Assembly (NCBI GenBank): GCA_016212295.1
Contig: JACRGO010000165.1
Location: 1-31,569, forward strand
From: Nitrospinota bacterium
Lineage (GTDB): Bacteria; Nitrospinota; Nitrospinia; JACRGO01
DNA length: 31,569 nt
Direction: 5' to 3'
Under the pieces are notes generated by a model. It was not told the origin of the DNA. It saw only the letters and a program-made list of their open reading frames with translations, and made no database searches. This document shows positions 8,408-30,749 of the stretch, piece by piece. Every line of letters begins with the position of its first letter. Position 1 is the stretch's first letter. The translations under genes and the position numbers were made by a program.

Positions 8408-11371
8408 ATGCGAAAAATCTCTGATATGCCGGCTCAAAAAACACCTAAAACAGAAACAAACCTCCGCCTCGGGGAGTACCTCATCCAGAATATCGGGATT
8501 TCCGAGACCGAACTGGCGAAGCTCCTCAACATGCAAAAGTACCTGGATGATAAAATAGGGGAGATCGCCATCCGGGAGGGATATATCACCAAGGGCGTGC
8601 TGGACGAGGTCCTGGAGTTCCAGAAAAAACGCGGCGTGAGCTTTGGAAACGCCGCCATCTTCCTGGGCCATATAAAGGACTCCCAGGTAAAACACCTTCT
8701 GGATGTTCAGGCCCAGGAAAAAAATCGGATCGGCGAACTGCTGGTCCAAAGAAAATTCGTCACCCATGAGAAGCTCCTGGCGCTTCTCCACAAGTTTTAC
8801 TCCGAAAAAAAAGTTTCCTTCCGCATCCTGGCCTTGGTTCCAAAAGCATCGGGCCAGGAAATTCAAGAGGCCCTCAAGCCATATAAATACCAATTCCATT
8901 TCTCAGAGAACAGGGAAGAATTCCTTCCCCTGGCGGAAAAGCATAAACCCCAACTCATCCTCATGGATGAAGATATTGTGAATGCCGCTGAATACGCAAA
9001 AAAAATAAAAAGTTCCACTGCCTTTGGAAAATGCAAACTCTCCGTCTTCTCAAGGAAAAAAGAAAAAATGGAGATGCTGAGCGGCTATGAATGCGGGATC
9101 GACTACATACTCCCGGTCCCCTTCGACACCAAGAACCTGGTAAACATCATCATCGACACGGAAACAGGCTTCAAGGAAAAATCCGGTAAGCGCATCCTGG
9201 TGGTGGACGACAGCCTTTCAGTCCGGCTATCCGTTGCCCAGGAATTAAGGGAAGGAGGATTTCGCGTTATTTTCGCGGAGAACGGAAAGGAAGGCGTTGA
9301 AATCGCCTCCCTGGAAAAACCTGATTTGATTACCATGGATATTAATATGCCTGTGATGGACGGCTACCAGGCATGCCTCAGGCTTAAAAGCGCGGAAGAA
9401 ACAAGGCAAATACCGGTCATCATCCTCACCAGCAACAATACAATGGAGGAAAGAGAGAAGGGATTCGAGGTTGGGGCCGTGGAGTATTTCACAAAGCCCT
9501 TCACCAAGGGACATCTCCAAAGCTACATCAAACACCTCCTGATCGGGAAAAAGGAGATCAGGCCGGAGATAATCCTGGTCGCTGAGGACAGTTTCATAGA
9601 CCGTGGAATTTTCAAGGACATTTTGAATAAATACGGGTTCAGGTTCGAGATCGTGGGAAACGGACAGGAAGTCTTGAATATCCTGGAAACCGGATACAAA
9701 CCCTCAGTGATATTATTGGAATGCAACATGCCGGTCATGGACGGCTTTCAAACCTGCAAAAATCTCAAGGGAAGCGACCGCTACCGCCATATACCCATAA
9801 TCATGCTGTCCGCCGCAAAGGAAAAAGAGGACATTTTAAGGGGCCTCAAGGTGGGAGCGGATGATTATATCCTGAAACCCTTTGACGGGGACGAGTTGGT
9901 GGCGCGGATCATGGCCCACGCGAAAAATTATTTCCTCTTCATTCAATTGCGGGAAAGCGAGGAAAAACAACGGCGCCTGAAGGTGGAGGCCGAATCCGCC
10001 AATAAGGCTAAGTCCATCTTCCTCGCCAATATGAGCCATGAAATCCGCACACCCATGAACGCCATCCTCGGATATGCCCAACTCCTGAAAAGGGAGTCCG
10101 GCTTGAGCAAGAAACAACGGGAAGAAGTAGGCATAATCGAAAAGAGCGGAAACCATCTTCTGGCCCTAATTAACGACATACTGGATATTTCAAAGATCGA
10201 GGCCGGAAGAATGGATTTGAAGCCGCGTGATTTCAGTCTTTCAGGGCTGCTTGCCGACCTGTCCGCCATGTTCCGCATCCGGTGCGAGGGCAAGGGCATT
10301 GAATGGCGAATGGAGGGCATGGAGGACGGCAAGGAAATTCACGCGCATGGCGATGAAGGCAAATTGAGACAGGTGCTGATAAATCTGTTGGGAAACGCCG
10401 TCAAATTCACGGAATCCGGCCATATACTGTTGAAGATAACCAAGAAGAAAAAAAACCTTTTTCTTTTTGAGGTGACAGATACCGGGGCCGGCATCTCCAG
10501 GGAATCTCAAGAGGCCGTCTTTGAACCCTTTCAGCAAGAAGAGGAAGGATACAAGAAAGGCGGCACCGGTCTGGGATTGGCTATTTCCCGCAAGCAGGTG
10601 GAACTAATGGGAGGATCGCTTGAATTGAAATCAGACGTGGGAAGCGGCTCGCGGTTCTTCTTCACCTTGTCTCTTCCCGCCGCGAAGGAAAAGGTCAAAC
10701 CCGCAACGGCCCAGGGCAAAAAGGTGGTTGCCCTTGCGCCGGGATTCAGAGTGAAGGCCCTGGTGGTGGACGATAGCCGGGTAAACCGTGACGTAATATC
10801 CAAAATGCTGCTGGAAATAGGGGTGGAAGTCGAGGAGGCTGAAAACGGCCTGGTTGCCCTGGAAAAAGCCAGAAAAAATGTCCCGGACATAGTGTTCATG
10901 GACTACCGCATGCCGGAGATGGATGGAGTCAAGGCCACCTGGCAAATTAAAAAAGAATTTGGTGACAAGGTCAAGACAGTGATGGTCACCGCCTCGGCCT
11001 TTGACCATGAGCGCGAAATTTTTGAAAAAGCCGGGTCTGACGAAATGCTTTCCAAGCCTTTTCGCGTGGAGGACGCCTTTAGCTGCATGGCGAGGCTCTT
11101 GAAACTTGAATACGTGTATGAGGAGGAAGGCGCCAAGGAAGAAAAGGTTTCCAAGGCAATTGAATGTGATATTTCCAGGCTAAAGCTTCCAGAAGCCCTG
11201 GTTTCCCGCATAATGAAAGACACGGAATTCTATAAGATCACCGACCTCCAGAAATCCCTTGAGGAAATGGAGCGAATAGGGCCGGAGCAGGCCAAGCTGG
11301 CTGAAAGCCTCCGTGACATGGCGAACAGTTATAACATGGACGGCATACTCCGCGTCTTGAAGAAGCCATAG
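8408..11371 (+). CDS. Multi-receiver hybrid histidine kinase with MshEN-like N-terminus
   Basis: Domains of the 987-residue protein in order: MshEN-like half repeats (about 19-135; for example KIGEIAIREGYI and RIGELLVQRKFV), a degenerate receiver (about 138-252, Asp187 region, Lys position lost), a complete receiver (262-378, Asp311, Lys363), a third receiver with Glu438 in place of Asp (386-505, LLECNMPVMDG), HisKA with His544 (MSHEIRTPMNAIL), HATPase_c (N box about 654-667, DTGAGIS 691-697, GTGLGLA 719-725) and a fourth, complete receiver (782-898, Asp832). A helical tail of about 90 residues follows. There are no membrane segments, so this is a cytoplasmic kinase. MshEN domains bind c-di-GMP in MshE, so nucleotide input is possible but inferred. 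ATG 8426 is an alternative start; neither has a clear ribosome site. Confidence 0.95.
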   Translation: MRKISDMPAQKTPKTETNLRLGEYLIQNIGISETELAKLLNMQKYLDDKIGEIAIREGYITKGVLDEVLEFQKKRGVSFGNAAIFLGHIKDSQVKHLLDVQAQEKNRIGELLVQRKFVTHEKLLALLHKFYSEKKVSFRILALVPKASGQEIQEALKPYKYQFHFSENREEFLPLAEKHKPQLILMDEDIVNAAEYAKKIKSSTAFGKCKLSVFSRKKEKMEMLSGYECGIDYILPVPFDTKNLVNIIIDTETGFKEKSGKRILVVDDSLSVRLSVAQELREGGFRVIFAENGKEGVEIASLEKPDLITMDINMPVMDGYQACLRLKSAEETRQIPVIILTSNNTMEEREKGFEVGAVEYFTKPFTKGHLQSYIKHLLIGKKEIRPEIILVAEDSFIDRGIFKDILNKYGFRFEIVGNGQEVLNILETGYKPSVILLECNMPVMDGFQTCKNLKGSDRYRHIPIIMLSAAKEKEDILRGLKVGADDYILKPFDGDELVARIMAHAKNYFLFIQLRESEEKQRRLKVEAESANKAKSIFLANMSHEIRTPMNAILGYAQLLKRESGLSKKQREEVGIIEKSGNHLLALINDILDISKIEAGRMDLKPRDFSLSGLLADLSAMFRIRCEGKGIEWRMEGMEDGKEIHAHGDEGKLRQVLINLLGNAVKFTESGHILLKITKKKKNLFLFEVTDTGAGISRESQEAVFEPFQQEEEGYKKGGTGLGLAISRKQVELMGGSLELKSDVGSGSRFFFTLSLPAAKEKVKPATAQGKKVVALAPGFRVKALVVDDSRVNRDVISKMLLEIGVEVEEAENGLVALEKARKNVPDIVFMDYRMPEMDGVKATWQIKKEFGDKVKTVMVTASAFDHEREIFEKAGSDEMLSKPFRVEDAFSCMARLLKLEYVYEEEGAKEEKVSKAIECDISRLKLPEALVSRIMKDTEFYKITDLQKSLEEMERIGPEQAKLAESLRDMANSYNMDGILRVLKKP

Positions 11372-12321: not shown

Positions 12322-14853
12322 TCATTGCGACCTCCGGTTGACGTAGGCTGCGTCAAAATATTTCTTCTTTTTTCCTTTGCCGAAGTATTCCATAAAACCG
12401 TTCCAGAAGGTGGAAGGCGGCTCTATTTCCACAAGACAGTGGCCCGGGCGCGATTCAATGGCTGCGTCCTTATGCAGTGTGCAGGTATAGCCTTCAAACG
12501 CGGTGGTGGGCAATGAGTGTCTGGTGATTTGCGCCGCGCGGGGGACCGCGCAGCTAAAGCTCCCTATGTTGCCGTCCACTATGGTTTGGTCGCCCTCCGC
12601 CGGGACGCTTTGGGCCTTCTCGAGGACCCTCAAACACTGGTCGGCAAGAATGAGATTCAAAACAACGTTCAGGTCCCTGTCTATACTTTCCGCTATTGGC
12701 TTCGTCAAGGCATACCCGAAGAGCGCGGCAAACACCGCTGGATTATCTTTCGCCGCATCCATGAAAAACTTCTCCGCCAGGGTCTCCACATACCGGGCCA
12801 CGACCTCGTACTGGTCAGCCGGAGTTCCCCCATTGTAAATAGTCTCCGCGATGACGATTATTCCCCGGCCTATCTCCCCGAAGGCCCCGGCTGCAGCCTT
12901 TCCATATCGCGTTTTTCCATAAGATTTTAAAAGCGTCTTGGCGAGGTTCTCGGCTTCCTTTCCTATTTCCCGCGACGGCTTCTTGACCTTGAATCCTTTC
13001 TTTACAAGCTGGCGCATCTTCAGCGCTTCCGAGGCCAGGTCCTTCGCCTCTCCACCGAACTGGGTATTGAGTATCGCCTTAATCAAGAGATCAAGGGTTT
13101 TGTCGGTTTTCGGGGAATTTTCCTTCAACTCGCCATTGAGAAAAGACAGCAGCCCGTCTATTCCTTCCACAAACTCCCCTGGCTTAAGGCCCTTGGAGCT
13201 TGCATACTGCTTGAGCCCATCCTTAAGGCCTTCAAGCCCGCTGCACCTGGCCTCGTTCACATAATTGGCTTTTTCATAATCCGGCCGTTGGGATTCCTCG
13301 CCAGTTAATGAAGAACGGGAAAGCTTGGCCGTGGTAAGAGATCGGAGCTCAGCGTTAAGGGCTTTAATTATGGCGCGAAGTTCCTTGGCCCGCTCGGCTG
13401 ATAATTGAGGCGAGGCCAACGCGGAATTGGCGCTGGCAATCGACTTTCTTACGGCCGTGACAATGCCGGCGTCAATGCTATCCATTTCGCCGCCGTTTAA
13501 TTTGGTCTCTGGAATTTCAACCGGGTCCGCGCTGCATGTGGGAGTCCGGTCCTCCGCTATCGCAAGGGCGTATTCAGTCCCGTCTTCAAAATCAAATTGA
13601 GCGGCGAACGCGACCCTGCCGTCAAAATTCTGCGGCGTGGAAAGGGGAAATTTGTTGAATGAACGCGCCACAAGGGACGCGTTTTTGTCCTTGTATTTGG
13701 CAAGCTGTCCCCCCTTGAACAGCAAGGCGGGCGTCGCTTCAGTGGAAAACACATATATGAAAGGCTTGGCGCCCGCGGTGTCGTGGTCAAGGACCTCCAC
13801 CGCATGAGCTGAATCCGAAACTCCAAAAGGATATGACAGCGGACCTGCAAGCGGGACTTCAATCCTGGCAAAGGACGCCCCGTCGAACGTATATGCGGCG
13901 GTGGCACCGTTATTGTAATCGCGTGTGAAGATAAATAATTTGCCGAACCCGACCGCGAAATAGTCTATATTGTCAAATGTTGGAAATTCAAATTTGGGAT
14001 AAAAAGTCTCATATTGCCCTACTATTGTGCGCCCGATATAATAGGTCGAATCTCCTCCAGGGGTCAATGTAAGCGGCAGATAGATACCTCCACCTCCGCC
14101 GCCATTATAGATTTGTCCGTCTTCTCCGCCATACTGGATGTCAGGATAACTTTCCAAGTTGCCAATAAACGACGGGGTACCGTTCTCAAGTTTAAGTATC
14201 CTGTATATCGTGTACGCAACTGAATCTGGGGTAGTCTTAAAGTCGACATCCGCTATGATATAAGGAATCCCGCCGGCCACCGCCAATTGGTCAAGGTGCA
14301 TGCCTGTGACAACCACCGGCGGATAGGTCGAATCGGGATAAGGCAGCTCATGGCCGCAGAAACTGGAGAAAACCTCGGCCTGCTTCCCCCTCGCCGCGCG
14401 ATACAGCGAACATTTGTCATCGCCGCCATAGTACACATCACCGCTGTCGGTGATGTCCCATTTCTTTGGAACGATCAATGTCTTATAGCCTTGCCATTTC
14501 GGAGCGCCGGACCATGAAGCAATAAGTTTGAAGTTAGGGGTGGTTTTGGGATCGTAGCGCACGAGGGCCGTGGTATCTGGTCCAAGCGATTCTAGCGCGG
14601 TGGTAAAAGCTATAACTCCGTCATAGGCCATTTTGACTTCCCAAAAGGGATTAATAAGTTTGTTGCCGCCGCTGATGATCTTACCCAGGCCTGGTATGTT
14701 TTCGTTTTTCCTGGCAAGGACTGTAAGCCCGTACGGCGCCTCTTCGGCAAGAGCGGGAATGGGCGACAAGGCGGACACGCAAAACACAAAAATAAGAGAG
14801 TAAATCAGTGTACCCCAGCGCCGCGAGGAATTTTTTAAATTGCTCTTTTCCAT
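12322..14853 (-). CDS. Large exported protein, beta-rich N-half and helical C-half
   Basis: The 843-residue protein starts with a signal peptide (SLIFVFCVSALSPIPALA, cleavage after ALA). Residues about 40-440 are beta-rich and hold repeated motifs of the ITDSGDVYYGG, YFAVGFGKLFIF and FDGRVAFAAQF kind, which suggests a beta-propeller. Residues about 460-760 are mostly helical and charged. The last 110 residues carry four Cys (DQCLRV, SFSCAV, YTCTLH, GHCLVE) and may form a disulphide-bonded domain. AAGGAGG lies directly upstream of the ATG, so translation should be strong. It is divergent from a LuxR-type regulator. I do not recognise the full-length family; a cell-surface or periplasmic role is inferred. 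Confidence 0.85.
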   Translation of the reverse strand: MEKSNLKNSSRRWGTLIYSLIFVFCVSALSPIPALAEEAPYGLTVLARKNENIPGLGKIISGGNKLINPFWEVKMAYDGVIAFTTALESLGPDTTALVRYDPKTTPNFKLIASWSGAPKWQGYKTLIVPKKWDITDSGDVYYGGDDKCSLYRAARGKQAEVFSSFCGHELPYPDSTYPPVVVTGMHLDQLAVAGGIPYIIADVDFKTTPDSVAYTIYRILKLENGTPSFIGNLESYPDIQYGGEDGQIYNGGGGGGIYLPLTLTPGGDSTYYIGRTIVGQYETFYPKFEFPTFDNIDYFAVGFGKLFIFTRDYNNGATAAYTFDGASFARIEVPLAGPLSYPFGVSDSAHAVEVLDHDTAGAKPFIYVFSTEATPALLFKGGQLAKYKDKNASLVARSFNKFPLSTPQNFDGRVAFAAQFDFEDGTEYALAIAEDRTPTCSADPVEIPETKLNGGEMDSIDAGIVTAVRKSIASANSALASPQLSAERAKELRAIIKALNAELRSLTTAKLSRSSLTGEESQRPDYEKANYVNEARCSGLEGLKDGLKQYASSKGLKPGEFVEGIDGLLSFLNGELKENSPKTDKTLDLLIKAILNTQFGGEAKDLASEALKMRQLVKKGFKVKKPSREIGKEAENLAKTLLKSYGKTRYGKAAAGAFGEIGRGIIVIAETIYNGGTPADQYEVVARYVETLAEKFFMDAAKDNPAVFAALFGYALTKPIAESIDRDLNVVLNLILADQCLRVLEKAQSVPAEGDQTIVDGNIGSFSCAVPRAAQITRHSLPTTAFEGYTCTLHKDAAIESRPGHCLVEIEPPSTFWNGFMEYFGKGKKKKYFDAAYVNRRSQ

Positions 14854-15166: not shown

Positions 15167-16306
15167 ATGAAGAGGCTTCCGCCACTGGACGTCAAACTAT
15201 TGATGGGAGTTGTCAGGGATATTTATTCCTGTTTAAACCGCGAAACCCTCCCTCGCCATCTCCTCGCCGCCATTTCCAGGGCCGTACCCTCTCTCCACCT
15301 TACCTATGATGAAATCCACCCCAGGGAACACAAGGTCGTCCATACCGCAATGCCGGCCAGCGCCCCTTCGGAAGCCTTGGAGGTGTTTCAAAAATACATG
15401 CATGAGCATCCTTTCCTCAACCTTTTCTATCCCAGGGATATGGAAGTTCATCCATTTGCAAGCCATATAAAAAAATCAGCTAAGCGCCATATCCCTATTC
15501 ATTCCCCGGAAGGCAGGGCGGTGAAGTTTTCCGATGTCCTTACAACAAAGCAATTCCACCGTCTTGGACTGTACAACGAATTCTACAGGCCGTTGGATAT
15601 CGAATATCAGATGCTCCTCCCTGTCATACAAGACCGTTCCATTGCCTCCGGCATCACATTCAACCGGGACAGGCGCGATTTCACCGAGCGGGAAAGACTC
15701 ATTTTGAATCTGCTTGCTCCTCACATCATTCAGGCATTTCAGAATGCCGAGGCGGTCTTTGACGCCAGGATGAAGGCAGAGAAGGTTGATTGCGGGTTGA
15801 TCGTCCTTGCCCTTGATGGACAGATCATATTCCGGACCGAGAAGGCGCTCTCTTTATTGATGAAATACTTTAAACCTCGCTCCCATGATTCCAATAAGTT
15901 GCCGGATGAGCTTAACAGATGGGCCAGATGGCGGAAATCACTTCTTGCGAAGGAAAATGACGTCCCCTTGCCTTCAGGGCCTTATGTGGTGGAGAACGAG
16001 GAAGGACTTCTTATTATACGATTCATGGACAGCAATAGAGGGGAAGGGGACATGCTTTTGATTGAGGAAAAACAAAAAAACCCCGCTGCCATGCGCCTTC
16101 AATCCCTTGGTCTTACTCCAAGGGAGGCAGAGGCGCTGTACTGGATTTCCCAGGGAAAGACATATTCCGAGGCCGCCGCGATTCTTAACATAAGCCCCCG
16201 CACCATCCATAAACACCTTGAGAAAATATACGGCAAGCTTGAAGTGGAAAACAGGACCTCCGCGTCAATCAAGGCTTTCAGAGTCCTTGGCGTTTCGACC
16301 CAATAG
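15167..16306 (+). CDS. LuxR-type transcriptional regulator
   Basis: The 379-residue protein has a C-terminal LuxR/FixJ helix-turn-helix (about 315-375): LGLTPREAEALYWISQGKTY, AAILNISPRTIHKHLEKIYG, then KLEVENRTSA. The N-terminal 200 residues resemble the GAF-like sensory part of LuxR-family regulators, with FTERERLILNLLAPHIIQAF closing the domain. No receiver Asp motif and no membrane helix are seen, so a soluble ligand or protein signal is likely. GGAGG lies about 12 bases before the ATG, a slightly long spacing. It is divergent from the large exported protein and is a natural candidate to regulate it or itself. The gene is bracketed by perfect 19-bp direct repeats. Confidence 0.9.
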   Translation: MKRLPPLDVKLLMGVVRDIYSCLNRETLPRHLLAAISRAVPSLHLTYDEIHPREHKVVHTAMPASAPSEALEVFQKYMHEHPFLNLFYPRDMEVHPFASHIKKSAKRHIPIHSPEGRAVKFSDVLTTKQFHRLGLYNEFYRPLDIEYQMLLPVIQDRSIASGITFNRDRRDFTERERLILNLLAPHIIQAFQNAEAVFDARMKAEKVDCGLIVLALDGQIIFRTEKALSLLMKYFKPRSHDSNKLPDELNRWARWRKSLLAKENDVPLPSGPYVVENEEGLLIIRFMDSNRGEGDMLLIEEKQKNPAAMRLQSLGLTPREAEALYWISQGKTYSEAAAILNISPRTIHKHLEKIYGKLEVENRTSASIKAFRVLGVSTQ

Positions 16307-16326
16307 ATTCTTACACGTTAATTCCA

Positions 16327-16345
16327 AGAATTCATCTCTCACAAT
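16327..16345 (+). repeat. 19-bp direct repeat, right copy
   Basis: AGAATTCATCTCTCACAAT is identical to 14939-14957 and in the same orientation. It begins 21 bases after the LuxR stop codon. Like the left copy it is followed, after about 15 bases, by an inverted-repeat element. Confidence 0.85.
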
Positions 16346-16360
16346 AAAAAGAAAAGGAAT

Positions 16361-16432
16361 TTAACCAGGCACAAAGATCACAAAGTTTTTTCTCCGTGTC
16401 CTTTGTGAATTTTTTGTGTCCTTTGTGGTTAA
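16361..16432. repeat. CTTTGTGG-type inverted repeat
   Basis: TTAACCAGGCACAAAGATCA and the right part CCTTTGTGGTTAA form an imperfect inverted repeat with internal copies of CTTTGTG. Half copies are seen at about 26061-26096 and 28880-28922. Bases about 16440-16470 resemble the GC tail of the main repeat family (GGTTGTGGCTATGCCGCGCC). The 304-base gap 16307-16610 otherwise holds the group II intron fragment. Confidence 0.75.
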
Positions 16433-16540
16433 TTCTTGTTTTTGGTTGTGGTTGTGGCTATGCCGCGCCATGTTACGAATCAGAAACGAGTTATTCTCAA
16501 TTCAAGGCTCGGCCCCATTTTTGCCATTTTTGTTCGTTAT

Positions 16541-16611
16541 GAACCGCCCTGCGCGGACCCGCATGCAGGATGGTGCGGGGGCTGGGGGCTAAACACCCTC
16601 GGCTACCCGAT
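16541..16611 (+). mobile_element. Group II intron 3' fragment (domains V and VI), IIC-attC type
   Basis: Domain V: ACCGCCCTGC (16543-16552) pairs with GCAGGATGGT (16565-16574), enclosing the apical hairpin GCG GACC CGC and the characteristic two-base bulge AT (16563-16564). Domain VI: GGGGGCTGGGGG pairs with CCCTCGGCT-A-CCC, leaving A16605 bulged seven bases from the 3' end, the position of a branch-point adenosine. The element ends ...ACCCGAT, an AY terminus, at 16611, followed by TAGGTGGC. This is the TTGT/TAGG-type attC boundary used by group IIC-attC introns, and in the expected orientation (opposite to the cassette gene). No reverse transcriptase or domains I-IV are present; the left limit lies somewhere in 16471-16540. 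It is a 5'-truncated remnant. Confidence 0.75.
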
Positions 16612-17246
16612 TAGGTGGCAATGCCCGCCGGTCGGAATAGCACAAAATAGCAAAACCTTGGCCCAAGCGTGCGTTCGAAAACGAAGCCCGCCTCCTCGGC
16701 TTTATTCTTCAGGGCAGAGAGTGGGACATAATCCGGATCGACAAGAACTTCACCAACCACAAGCCGTCCCTCGACTTTCAGAACCCGCCGCAGTTCACGA
16801 AGCGCCGCGATGCCATCCGGGATTTCTCCAAGTGTCCCAATCATATATGCAGCATCAAACATATGATCTGGATACGGAAGCGCCTGCGCATCCCCTTGTG
16901 TCGTCACTATATTCGTGACATCGGCTTTTGCTGCCCGTCGGCACAGATCGCCGAGCATCTCCTGCTGCACATCCAGTGCATCCAAAATTCCGCCGGGAAG
17001 CAGCGCAGCGGCGATTTGGAGAGCGTGAACTCCGATTCCAGGGCCAATTTCCAGGATTCGCTCGCCACTTCGTGGCTCAAGGATTTTATCGAGATGTTGA
17101 GGCGAGTTCGGACCGCGGGGTAGAAAGAGTATCCACCGCATGAAATATGGCATCGGCATAGGGTGTCCGCGGTTCCATGCACGCGCGGCAACGCTCAGAA
17201 TCAAGGCCACGATCGAAGCATAAAAAGCCCAGACTTGTCGCTTCAT
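16611..17246 (-). CDS. SAM-dependent class I methyltransferase (integron cassette gene)
   Basis: The 211-residue protein has one N-terminal membrane segment (VWAFYASIVALILSVAAR), then a class I methyltransferase fold. Motif I is LEIGPGIGVHA, the acidic loop is LDALDVQQEM, there is GDAQALPYPDHMFDAAYM for motifs II-III, and then a core helix ELRRVLKVEGRLVVGE. It belongs to the methyltransferase type 11 group; its substrate is unknown, perhaps membrane-associated. AAGGGA precedes ATG 17246; the longer start at 17270 lies inside the attC end and has no ribosome site. The gene lies right after an attC (17269-17331), and its stop codon sits in what would be the first bases of its own attC, now replaced by the intron fragment. 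The context marks it as a captured cassette. Confidence 0.88.
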   Translation of the reverse strand: MKRQVWAFYASIVALILSVAARAWNRGHPMPMPYFMRWILFLPRGPNSPQHLDKILEPRSGERILEIGPGIGVHALQIAAALLPGGILDALDVQQEMLGDLCRRAAKADVTNIVTTQGDAQALPYPDHMFDAAYMIGTLGEIPDGIAALRELRRVLKVEGRLVVGEVLVDPDYVPLSALKNKAEEAGFVFERTLGPRFCYFVLFRPAGIAT

Positions 17247-17268
17247 ACCGTATTGTCCCTTCCCAGCC

Positions 17269-17331
17269 ATCTAACGTTGCGGTTAAACGGCGTGCCCCCA
17301 AGACGCATCTGTCTCGAACCGCTTGTTAGGC
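17269..17331 (-). other. Integron attC recombination site (59-base element)
   Basis: Read on the minus strand it starts GCCTAACAAGCGGTT and ends AACCGCAACGTTAGAT. The R box CTAAC/GTTAG and the L box AACCGC/GCGGTT pair across the site (17271-17284 against 17317-17329), with a variable central part and the usual spacers. The stop codon TAA of the upstream ORF lies in the GCCTAAC end, as is typical of cassettes. The total of 63 nt is within the normal attC range. Confidence 0.9.
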
Positions 17332-17478
17332 GCTGTCTTTCCCGGCCTTATTATCATGCGATCCCACCGTGGCGAGCGCGGCTGCTATCAGCATCGCCAT
17401 CGCACTGGGCGCATAGAACAAGCCAATCGACAATGCGCCCCCTACGACGAAAACCAGTAAGAGAACCGCACCGACCAT
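17326..17478 (-). CDS. Small hydrophobic protein, cassette ORF (second frame)
   Basis: The 50-residue ORF starts at ATG 17478 and has two hydrophobic segments (AVLLLVFVVGGALSIGL and AMAMLIAAALATVG), then a polar tail ending KAGKDSA. Its stop is in the attC. It overlaps the preceding ORF by 37 bases in another frame. Either it is a separate small gene with GGAG very close to the ATG, or it is the second half of one four-helix protein split by a frameshift near 17480. The frame continues open upstream, but that part is Arg/Gly rich and looks non-coding. Confidence 0.5.
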   Translation of the reverse strand: MVGAVLLLVFVVGGALSIGLFYAPSAMAMLIAAALATVGSHDNKAGKDSA

Positions 17479-17645
17479 CTCCAAGCGGCAAGGTATATCG
17501 TCACGCCTACGGCCCACCCCAGCGCGGCACACACCAGCGCGCGCTCGGCGATGGACCACAGCTTGTCGTCCTGCGCCCGGGCCCGTTGCAGGACAACGAC
17601 GGGGAGCACGACGAGTGTAAGAAAAACTATGCCCCAGAACCACAT
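17442..17645 (-). CDS. Small two-helix membrane protein, cassette ORF (first frame)
   Basis: The 67-residue ORF has hydrophobic segments WFWGIVFLTLVVLPVVVL and ALVCAALGWAVGVTIYLAAW around a charged loop (QRARAQDDKLWSIAER). AGGA lies about 10 bases before the ATG. From about residue 55 the translation becomes less natural, just where the overlapping frame begins a new hydrophobic stretch, so a single-base frameshift splitting one gene of about 106 residues is likely. It is the upstream gene of the cassette that ends in the attC. I see no attC or attI further upstream, up to 17860. Function unknown. Confidence 0.55.
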   Translation of the reverse strand: MWFWGIVFLTLVVLPVVVLQRARAQDDKLWSIAERALVCAALGWAVGVTIYLAAWRWSVRFSYWFSS

Positions 17646-17841
17646 ACCACTATTTCCTGTCCGTATAATGGCGGCCTGGTCCGCTTCAAATCGCCACCTG
17701 AATTCGCCAAGAAATCAGCACAAGCGCGTTTAAAAAGTCAAAAATTTTCCGGCGCATTTTCGCCCGAAAAAATCGTGAAGAAATCGCGAAGCGAAAAATC
17801 TTTTAGCCAAACTTCAAGTCCTCCGGACTACAATTCCAAAA

Positions 17842-18050
17842 AACTTTGCTAAAAAACAAAGTGTTATGAAACTCCAAACCTCAATTGTCAAATAACAAAT
17901 AAATCTCAATAACCAAAATTACAAATAACAAACAAGGAAAAGTAATTATTTTGGACATTCAATAATTGTAATTTGTAATTTATTTGTAATTTGATATTTG
18001 TCATTTGGGATTTTGTTTCACCATTAACTGCTACGGAGCCGCGCCGTGGT
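17842..18050 (+). repeat. AT-rich interspersed repeat, copy 2
   Basis: This is a full-looking copy in the opposite sense to 2325-2500: hairpin ACTTTG CTAAAAAA CAAAGT, then TATGAAACTCCAAACCTCAA, the AT-rich arms, GGACATTCAATAATTGTAAT, and a GC tail GGAGCCGCGCC. The gap 17646-18059 contains this element and about 195 bases (17646-17841) in which I see neither a gene nor a repeat. Confidence 0.88.
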
Positions 18051-28922: not shown

Positions 28923-30749
28923 AGCTCCTAACCTCCCCCACATCCCATCCACCTTCATCTTCACCTCTTCGGTCATCTCCAACTCATCCGGCCACTCGCG
29001 CTGAAATCCCTCCTCTTTCCATTTTCGCGTGGCGTCGACGCACAGCTTGTCCTGGAAAAAATGGAGGTCCCTTTTGGGGTCCGTGTTGTTGAAGAATTTC
29101 CACACCGCGACGGAATTGTTTTTCACGTCTGTTTCAGAGTCGAACACCACCACAATCCTGAACGCCCCGAGGCCCGGCGTCTGAAAAATAATCTCCGCTG
29201 TTTCCCTGGCAGCGAAGGCCTTCCTTTTTTCCAGGGCGATAAAGAGAATTGGATTTTGGACCTGCCGCGCCGGAATGGCTATGTCGCGCGCATGGGGCGA
29301 CAAGGCCCTCACCATATTCAGGGTTTCCTGCTCCTCCGGGACGGTCTCATTCCGCCTTTTCGCGGGGACGTCGCCTTCACCAGGGAGGCGCGAGGTGGCG
29401 TCCACTCCCAGCTTGGAACCGTAAAGTCCGGTGGGAGAGGAATGATCCAGCGCGTCCAGCGCCCCATCTGAAAAATAAAGGTCTTTAGTCAGGTCGACCC
29501 GATTCAACACGTCCCGGACCAGCGCCGGATAGTCGTGCGGGTCCTTGGTGGAGTCCACCACCAGGACCATTTTGGAAAAACCCATCTGGCCGGTCCCCCA
29601 AAGGGAATTCATGGTCTGCCGCGCGTGAAAGGGATAGCTTTTCTTGATGGCCGCAACCACGCAGTTGTGAAACACCCCTTCCCAGGGAAGAGATATGTCG
29701 ACTATGTCGTGGTTAACAGTCTTTAGCAACGGGAGGAATATCCTTTCCGTGGCCTTGCCTATGTAGCAATCCTCCATTGGCGGCTTACCAACTATGGTTG
29801 TGTGGTACACCGCGTTTTTTCTGTGCGTGACGGCAGTGACATGAAAAACCGGATAAGGGGCGGCAAGGGAGTAATACCCGGTGTGGTCTCCGAACGGACC
29901 CTCCACGCGGCTTTCCTCCGGGTCAACGTACCCTTCCAGGACTATCTCCGCGGTTGCCGGGACCTCCAGGTTAACGGTTTTGCATTTCGCCATCTCCACC
30001 CCTTTCTTGCGGATGAAACCGGCCAGCAGAATTTCATCCACGTCCGGCGGCAAGGGCGCGGTGGCGGCGTAAGTCACAACCGGATCGGCCCCGATGGCCA
30101 CAGCCACTTCCATCCTTTTCTTGAGTTCCTTGTGTTCACGGAAATGGCGTGCCCCGTCCTTGTGGATGTGCCAATGCATGCCTGTGGTGTTTTTGCCGTA
30201 CACCTGCATCCGGTACATTCCAACATTGCGCCTGCCGTTAAGCGGCGACCGTGTGAACACCAGTGGTAGGGTGATGAAGCGTCCACCATCCCCCGGCCAG
30301 CACTTAAGTACCGGAAATTTTTCCAGGTCGATATTATCCCCTGTGAGAACCACCTCCTGGCATGGCGGGACCGCGCCTTTGAAAACTCTCGGCGGGATCT
30401 TTATCAGGTCGAACAATTTCGGCAGCAGGGACAGTTTGCCTGAAATGGTCTTGGGCGGAGAAAATTCAATTATTTCCCTGATATCGCGGGCGATTTCTTC
30501 TATATCGCCAACCCCCAGGGCCATGCGGATTCTCTTCCTGCTTCCGAAGGCGTTGATCAGGACAGGGACGGCTGATCCCTCGGCGTTCTCGAACAAAAGT
30601 GCCTTGCCGCCATCACGGCCTTTAGAGACCCTGTCAGTTATCTCAGTGATTTCCAGTATAGGGGAGACCCTTTCCCGGACGCGGACCAGTTCGCCTTCTG
30701 TTTCCAGGCGGCGGATGAAATCGTGAAGGGATGAATAGGTTGTTCTCAT
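28920..30749 (-). CDS. UbiD-family decarboxylase (menaquinone-type)
   Basis: The 609-residue protein belongs to the UbiD family, which uses prenylated FMN to (de)carboxylate aromatic or unsaturated acids. Signature residues are Arg180 (NVGMYRMQVYG), Glu283 and Asp288 in EGPFGDHTGYYS, and the N-terminal DFIRRLETEGELVRV. The length of about 600 residues is like the menaquinone-pathway decarboxylases (futalosine route) rather than E. coli UbiD. The substrate is not certain from sequence. UbiX, the flavin prenyltransferase it needs, is not in the window. There is no strong ribosome site before the ATG at 30749. Confidence 0.93.
   Translation of the reverse strand: MRTTYSSLHDFIRRLETEGELVRVRERVSPILEITEITDRVSKGRDGGKALLFENAEGSAVPVLINAFGSRKRIRMALGVGDIEEIARDIREIIEFSPPKTISGKLSLLPKLFDLIKIPPRVFKGAVPPCQEVVLTGDNIDLEKFPVLKCWPGDGGRFITLPLVFTRSPLNGRRNVGMYRMQVYGKNTTGMHWHIHKDGARHFREHKELKKRMEVAVAIGADPVVTYAATAPLPPDVDEILLAGFIRKKGVEMAKCKTVNLEVPATAEIVLEGYVDPEESRVEGPFGDHTGYYSLAAPYPVFHVTAVTHRKNAVYHTTIVGKPPMEDCYIGKATERIFLPLLKTVNHDIVDISLPWEGVFHNCVVAAIKKSYPFHARQTMNSLWGTGQMGFSKMVLVVDSTKDPHDYPALVRDVLNRVDLTKDLYFSDGALDALDHSSPTGLYGSKLGVDATSRLPGEGDVPAKRRNETVPEEQETLNMVRALSPHARDIAIPARQVQNPILFIALEKRKAFAARETAEIIFQTPGLGAFRIVVVFDSETDVKNNSVAVWKFFNNTDPKRDLHFFQDKLCVDATRKWKEEGFQREWPDELEMTEEVKMKVDGMWGRLGA

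Follow-up and report, generated by a model that had tools for sequence, protein, structure and literature searches.

A domain V–VI relic of a group IIC-attC intron at the R'' half of a cassette attC in a Nitrospinota genome

We analysed a stretch of 31,569 nucleotides (the window) from a Nitrospinota bacterium (assembly GCA_016212295.1, contig JACRGO010000165.1). Window positions 16541–16611 on the plus strand, 71 bases, are a relic of a group IIC-attC intron of which only domain V (DV) and domain VI (DVI) are left, and the segment belongs to the 3' end of such an intron. It very probably records an intron that was inserted into an integron attC and later lost its 5' part together with half of that site, a loss that should block excision of the adjoining cassette. 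The features of the locus are as follows.

15167–16306: LuxR gene
16436–16531 (+): host intergenic DNA with dispersed short repeats (16436–16473 and 16493–16531), neither attC nor intron
16532–16540 (+): 5' breakpoint zone, where homology ends; TCRTTATGAACC is common to the sister relics
16541–16575 (+): DV and the one-base linker to DVI
16543–16552 with 16565–16574 (+): DV basal stem, 10 bp
16553–16555 with 16560–16562 (+): DV apical stem, 3 bp, with a loop of 4 nt
16563–16564 (+): DV AT bulge
16570 (+): decay mark, A replacing G, which breaks the DV pair C16547–G16570
16576–16611 (+): DVI and intron 3' end (...CCCGAT)
16612–16619 (+): 3' exon TAGGTGGC, the surviving R'' half of the methyltransferase cassette's attC
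16611–17270 (−): class I SAM-dependent methyltransferase cassette gene, 219 aa, with its TAA stop inside R'' (ORF list; Pfam Methyltransf_25/11)
17269–17331 (−): intact attC of the preceding cassette (attC scan, fold and alignment)
17326–17643 (−): putative cassette ORF, 105 aa, with its stop likewise inside R'' (ORF list)

On the plus strand, this DV–DVI structure has the minimum free energy (z = −2.9), while folding of the minus strand is not unusual (z = −0.49). The architecture is that of a group IIC-attC 3' end, with a DV comprised of a 10-bp stem, a 2-nt bulge and a short apical stem. The DVI helix region (16576–16609) has one bulged A, the branch point, at 16605; the intron closes seven bases from it with AT (AY in this intron class) at 16611, and TAGG follows. 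The first-pass annotation had described a textbook DV and had drawn the element to 16613. The overall architecture stands, but one basal pair is broken, and the intron runs only to 16611, the last 2 nt being 3' exon. In an alignment, the intron 3' end occupies the same position as in introns adjoining aadB and catB2.

We searched Rfam with the fragment and obtained nothing at the gathering score and no group II match over the fragment at E ≤ 10, and a genome search with RF00029 returned other intron types but not the fragment. Therefore, a family-specific covariance model (R1) was built from 30 relatives, taken from a pattern scan and from plasmid copies, with the window sequence excluded. The fragment was the sole match of this model in the window (87.6 bits, E 5.5e-18). 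Thus, the covariance search that the first-pass annotation had suggested fails with the Rfam models and succeeds with our own. Among the 30 relatives, seven pairs show compensatory changes on both sides, with 55 both-side-changed cells compared to 14.6 in shuffles, and pairing holds in 99.6% of cells compared to 42–49% when the partner is slid.

By blastn, the fragment matches 475 plasmid records and 153 E. coli genomes, with all 75 bases covered at 88–89% identity in the best cases. The same identity, over 74–77 nt, relates the fragment to introns of class 1 integrons. Five of the best plasmid matches were inspected. Each is part of a class 1 integron, where it sits at the end of a cassette gene in antisense orientation, and four have an annotated ltrA (reverse transcriptase, RT). 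A pattern scan of an 84,980-species genome collection located at least 116 stretches that carry a 3' end of this type, of which 80 were read. The homology, the fold and the covariation bear out the earlier reading of the plus strand as DV and DVI in sequence, structure and position, and as the truncated 3' end of a group IIC-attC intron that aligns with known ends of this type.

Next, we compared the insertion point to known sites. The 3' exon begins TAGGTGG directly after the intron end. In an aadB cassette without an intron the corresponding strand reads GAATTGT/TAGGCCGC, and in an aadB cassette with an intron it reads CCCGAT/TAGGCCGC, equivalent to CCCGAT/TAGGTGGC in the window. The bottom strand (+) of the intact neighbouring attC retains an unoccupied target, CTTGT/TAGGCGC, at 17326/17327. 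The insertion point of the fragment agrees with the known TTGT/TAGG site, on the attC bottom strand and antisense to the cassette gene, although the 5' exon is gone and the agreement concerns the 3' half of the site alone. From the empty and occupied aadB sites and the empty neighbouring target, we infer that insertion took place in the R'' site of the attC belonging to the methyltransferase cassette.

The methyltransferase TAA stop uses T16611, the last base of the intron. This overlap, to which the first-pass annotation had drawn attention, is real but uninformative. In an empty TTGT/TAGG site, such as the neighbouring attC or the empty aadB site, the equivalent T comes from TTGT and the stop is identical without an intron. 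The catB2 and aadB cassette stop codons lie at the identical nucleotide relative to the intron end, and the stop of the neighbouring cassette overlaps its own attC in exactly the same manner. Since the empty site provides the same T and the neighbouring stop overlaps alike, the overlap simply follows from the site and is no adaptation.

A scan for attC between 14800 and 17260 detected no site, and the R' half of the methyltransferase attC is absent, in keeping with the earlier proposal that the insertion point marks a second, destroyed attC. Because this attC is without its R' half, excision should be blocked and the cassette is probably locked in place. The locus comprises one complete attC and one R'' half with no intI on the contig, and is strictly a single-attC remnant when set against the CALIN criterion of at least two attC sites and no integrase. 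A Pfam search with the 105-aa ORF gave no match. Plasmid homologues of the methyltransferase are less than 60% identical, and the methyltransferase cassette gene was found in none of 77 genomes of the phylum. Neither the flanking genes nor the cassette had a match in one other genome of the same genus, which provides no empty or full version of the locus.

The remainder of the intron is missing. No RT fragment was detected in the window by tblastn with 15 RT proteins, and blastn with five 5' ribozyme regions detected neither domains I–IV (DI–DIV) nor a 5' splice site in the whole window. Homology to other copies stops 77–80 nt from the intron end, at about 16532–16540, which locates the breakpoint with an uncertainty of about 9 nt. 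These three results agree with the first-pass annotation, which had seen no RT or DI–DIV upstream. Copies of the repeat at 16493–16531 occur in contigs C81 and C156, and two of these copies share its end point. An attC half precedes the 5' end of the intron in three of the class 1 integron copies (L024, L026 and L027), whereas the window has no such half. The repeats around the cassette remnant were also considered as one element with its halves flanking the array, an idea that was dropped since 16304–16531 and 17818–18048 look like separate dispersed repeats. The latter, on the far side of the cassette remnant, is a dispersed repeat of ~200–230 bp with roughly 40 copies in the genome at 78–94% identity.

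We propose that a IIC-attC intron inserted between TTGT and TAGG of the attC that follows the methyltransferase gene, in the standard antisense orientation. Everything 5' of DV, comprising DI–DIV, the RT gene, the attC half in the 5' exon and any sequence beyond it, would then have been lost, probably by deletion or rearrangement after insertion, such that host intergenic repeat DNA now abuts the intron ~80 nt from its 3' end. The remnant is a non-functional relic, capable of neither splicing nor movement, in which decay of DV has begun. With the assembly in 237 contigs at 90.5% completeness, a misassembled junction is conceivable.

An unlikely alternative is abortive target-primed reverse transcription, in which a cDNA begun at the intron 3' end was joined early and the 5' part was never present. 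This reaction proceeds from the intron 3' end and its truncated products retain exactly DV–DVI, and incomplete reverse transcription has been proposed for Halorhodospira CALIN fragments (PMC7923331). Such a product should keep the 5' exon half of the attC, however, and no attC half lies upstream. The TTTTTGT that precedes the homology (ending at 16533) resembles the TTGT of the 5' exon, but this T run is accounted for by the end of the dispersed host repeat flank. Deletion or rearrangement fits better because the 5' part of the intron and the 5' exon half of the attC were both lost. It is very improbable that the fragment is a seam of cassette formation, in which an intron copy acted as recombination homology to join the methyltransferase gene to an attC; a role of this kind for intron copies is a published, unproven idea (summarised in PMC7923331). 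Slightly less probable again is an intron complete but for its RT, with DI nearby and the fragment as its 3' part, since introns of this kind with 5' ribozyme sequence are known in the same family (L067, L072, L082, L110 and L132) but all five 5' ribozyme regions lacked a blastn match throughout the window. We dismiss an unusual attC or a cassette transcription terminator with no intron part, although strong hairpins mark the end of the cassette and the stop codon overlaps this region as in a normal attC, since the unusual folding is on the plus and not the minus strand, the covariance model matches at E 5.5e-18, there is no T tract, no entry in the terminator scan list and no R' site, and homology to introns with an RT refutes it.

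Returning to the inserted and later truncated intron, signs of decay are present in DV. Position 16570 is G in 61 of 61 relatives and A in the window, and the pair that it breaks is unvarying in the 30-sequence alignment. Two further changes at near-invariant positions, T to C at 16552 and T to C at 16576, convert U-G to C-G and keep the stems; the change at 16576 is common to the window and the sister relics.

These two sister relics are both on contig C3 of the same genome, at 11231–11330 and 29249–29348, and have the same roughly 29-nt insertion in the apical part of DV. The former lies ~2 kb from an integron integrase gene (13450–14397), and its upstream end abuts what by eye appears to be the end of an IS3-type transposase, at a common GGTTATG that may represent microhomology. 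The latter has kept an RT gene from which a large internal portion is deleted. The search for the missing 5' part elsewhere in the genome, as the first-pass annotation had advised, yielded these two relics and no intact donor intron in this 90.5% complete assembly. Across the genome, RVT_1 matched only once, in a different intron on contig C142 with about 30–36% identity to IIC RTs. Integron integrase genes are present on contigs C146, C3, C182 and C50, three of them full-length and one split, and none lies on the contig of the window. Another group II-like DV/DVI end occurs as six near-identical copies (L012–L017; contigs C54, C73, C109, C160, C225 and C229), each with a different flank and several near contig ends, and is probably a multi-copy intron collapsed in assembly.

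We compared the relic to known systems. The IIC-attC introns of class 1 integrons (pWLK-NDM, L024; pGZAF1_VIM, L025; pEC2_2, L026; L027; L028) have the same type of DV–DVI at about 83–89% identity. Like the relic, they occupy a site before TAG, are antisense to the cassette and overlap the cassette stop where this falls in R''. Unlike the relic, which retains only the last 71–80 nt, ltrA is annotated in four of these five, and the attC half before the intron 5' end is still present in L024, L026 and L027. UHB.F1 from a Tanatar-5 soda lake cassette array (PMC7923331) is likewise a decayed, 5'-truncated IIC-attC intron antisense to its cassettes, but retains part of the RT gene. H.ha.F1 and H.ha.F2 from a Halorhodospira halochloris CALIN (PMC7923331) are also 5'-truncated with DV and DVI kept in an integrase-free cassette cluster, whereas they belong to group IIB and keep part of the RT.

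Truncation is frequent in this family. Among the matches listed, 49 survey copies had enough upstream DNA to assign an RT status, a sample bounded also by the scan's exact pattern. The RT is complete in 14 of them, partial in 24 and absent from 11, such that 35 of the 49 are without a full RT. Among these 11 listed RT-less copies, 5' ribozyme sequence persists in five, which resemble RT-less introns, and no 5' part was seen in six, made up of four ordinary cases plus both ends of L130. Because breakpoints among the listed copies fall anywhere from about 45 nt upward, the breakpoint near DV in the window is not special. Truncation affects the majority of group II intron copies in bacteria (PMC4028801), and truncated IIC-attC introns and DV–DVI fragments have already been described in cassette arrays (PMC7923331). 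For these two reasons the relic is a real but ordinary genomic scar, more ordinary than first thought, and a further example of a phenomenon already described. A solitary DV–DVI can mark destroyed attC sites which are overlooked by RT-based intron finders and unreported by Rfam at threshold, and a covariance model from 30 relatives detects such scars.

Other loci in the survey show further variations. L067, L072, L082, L099, L110 and L132 are IIC-attC-type introns with no detectable RT; in most of them 5' ribozyme sequence remains, no more than a few hundred bases 5' of DV, so that they resemble RT-less introns, and L082, L099 and L132 (Marinobacter, Alteromonas) have a common 273-nt joined 3' part. 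Insertions or replacements in the apical part or 5' strand of DV are found in L002 and L003 (contig C3), L102, L135, L063, L088, L117 and L129, which is unusual given that DV is the most conserved intron domain. In one Desulfobacteraceae genome, an IS4-family transposase gene (end ...CTTRTGGGTAATAGAAAG) is fused at the same position to the DV of three different group IIC introns (L182/L125, 100–156; L184, 100–160; L186/L089, 96–152). The three introns have differing DVI sequences, and the pattern looks like targeting of DV by the element. A related element in a gammaproteobacterial genome (L130, 970–2932) is flanked on both sides by inverted intron 3' ends.
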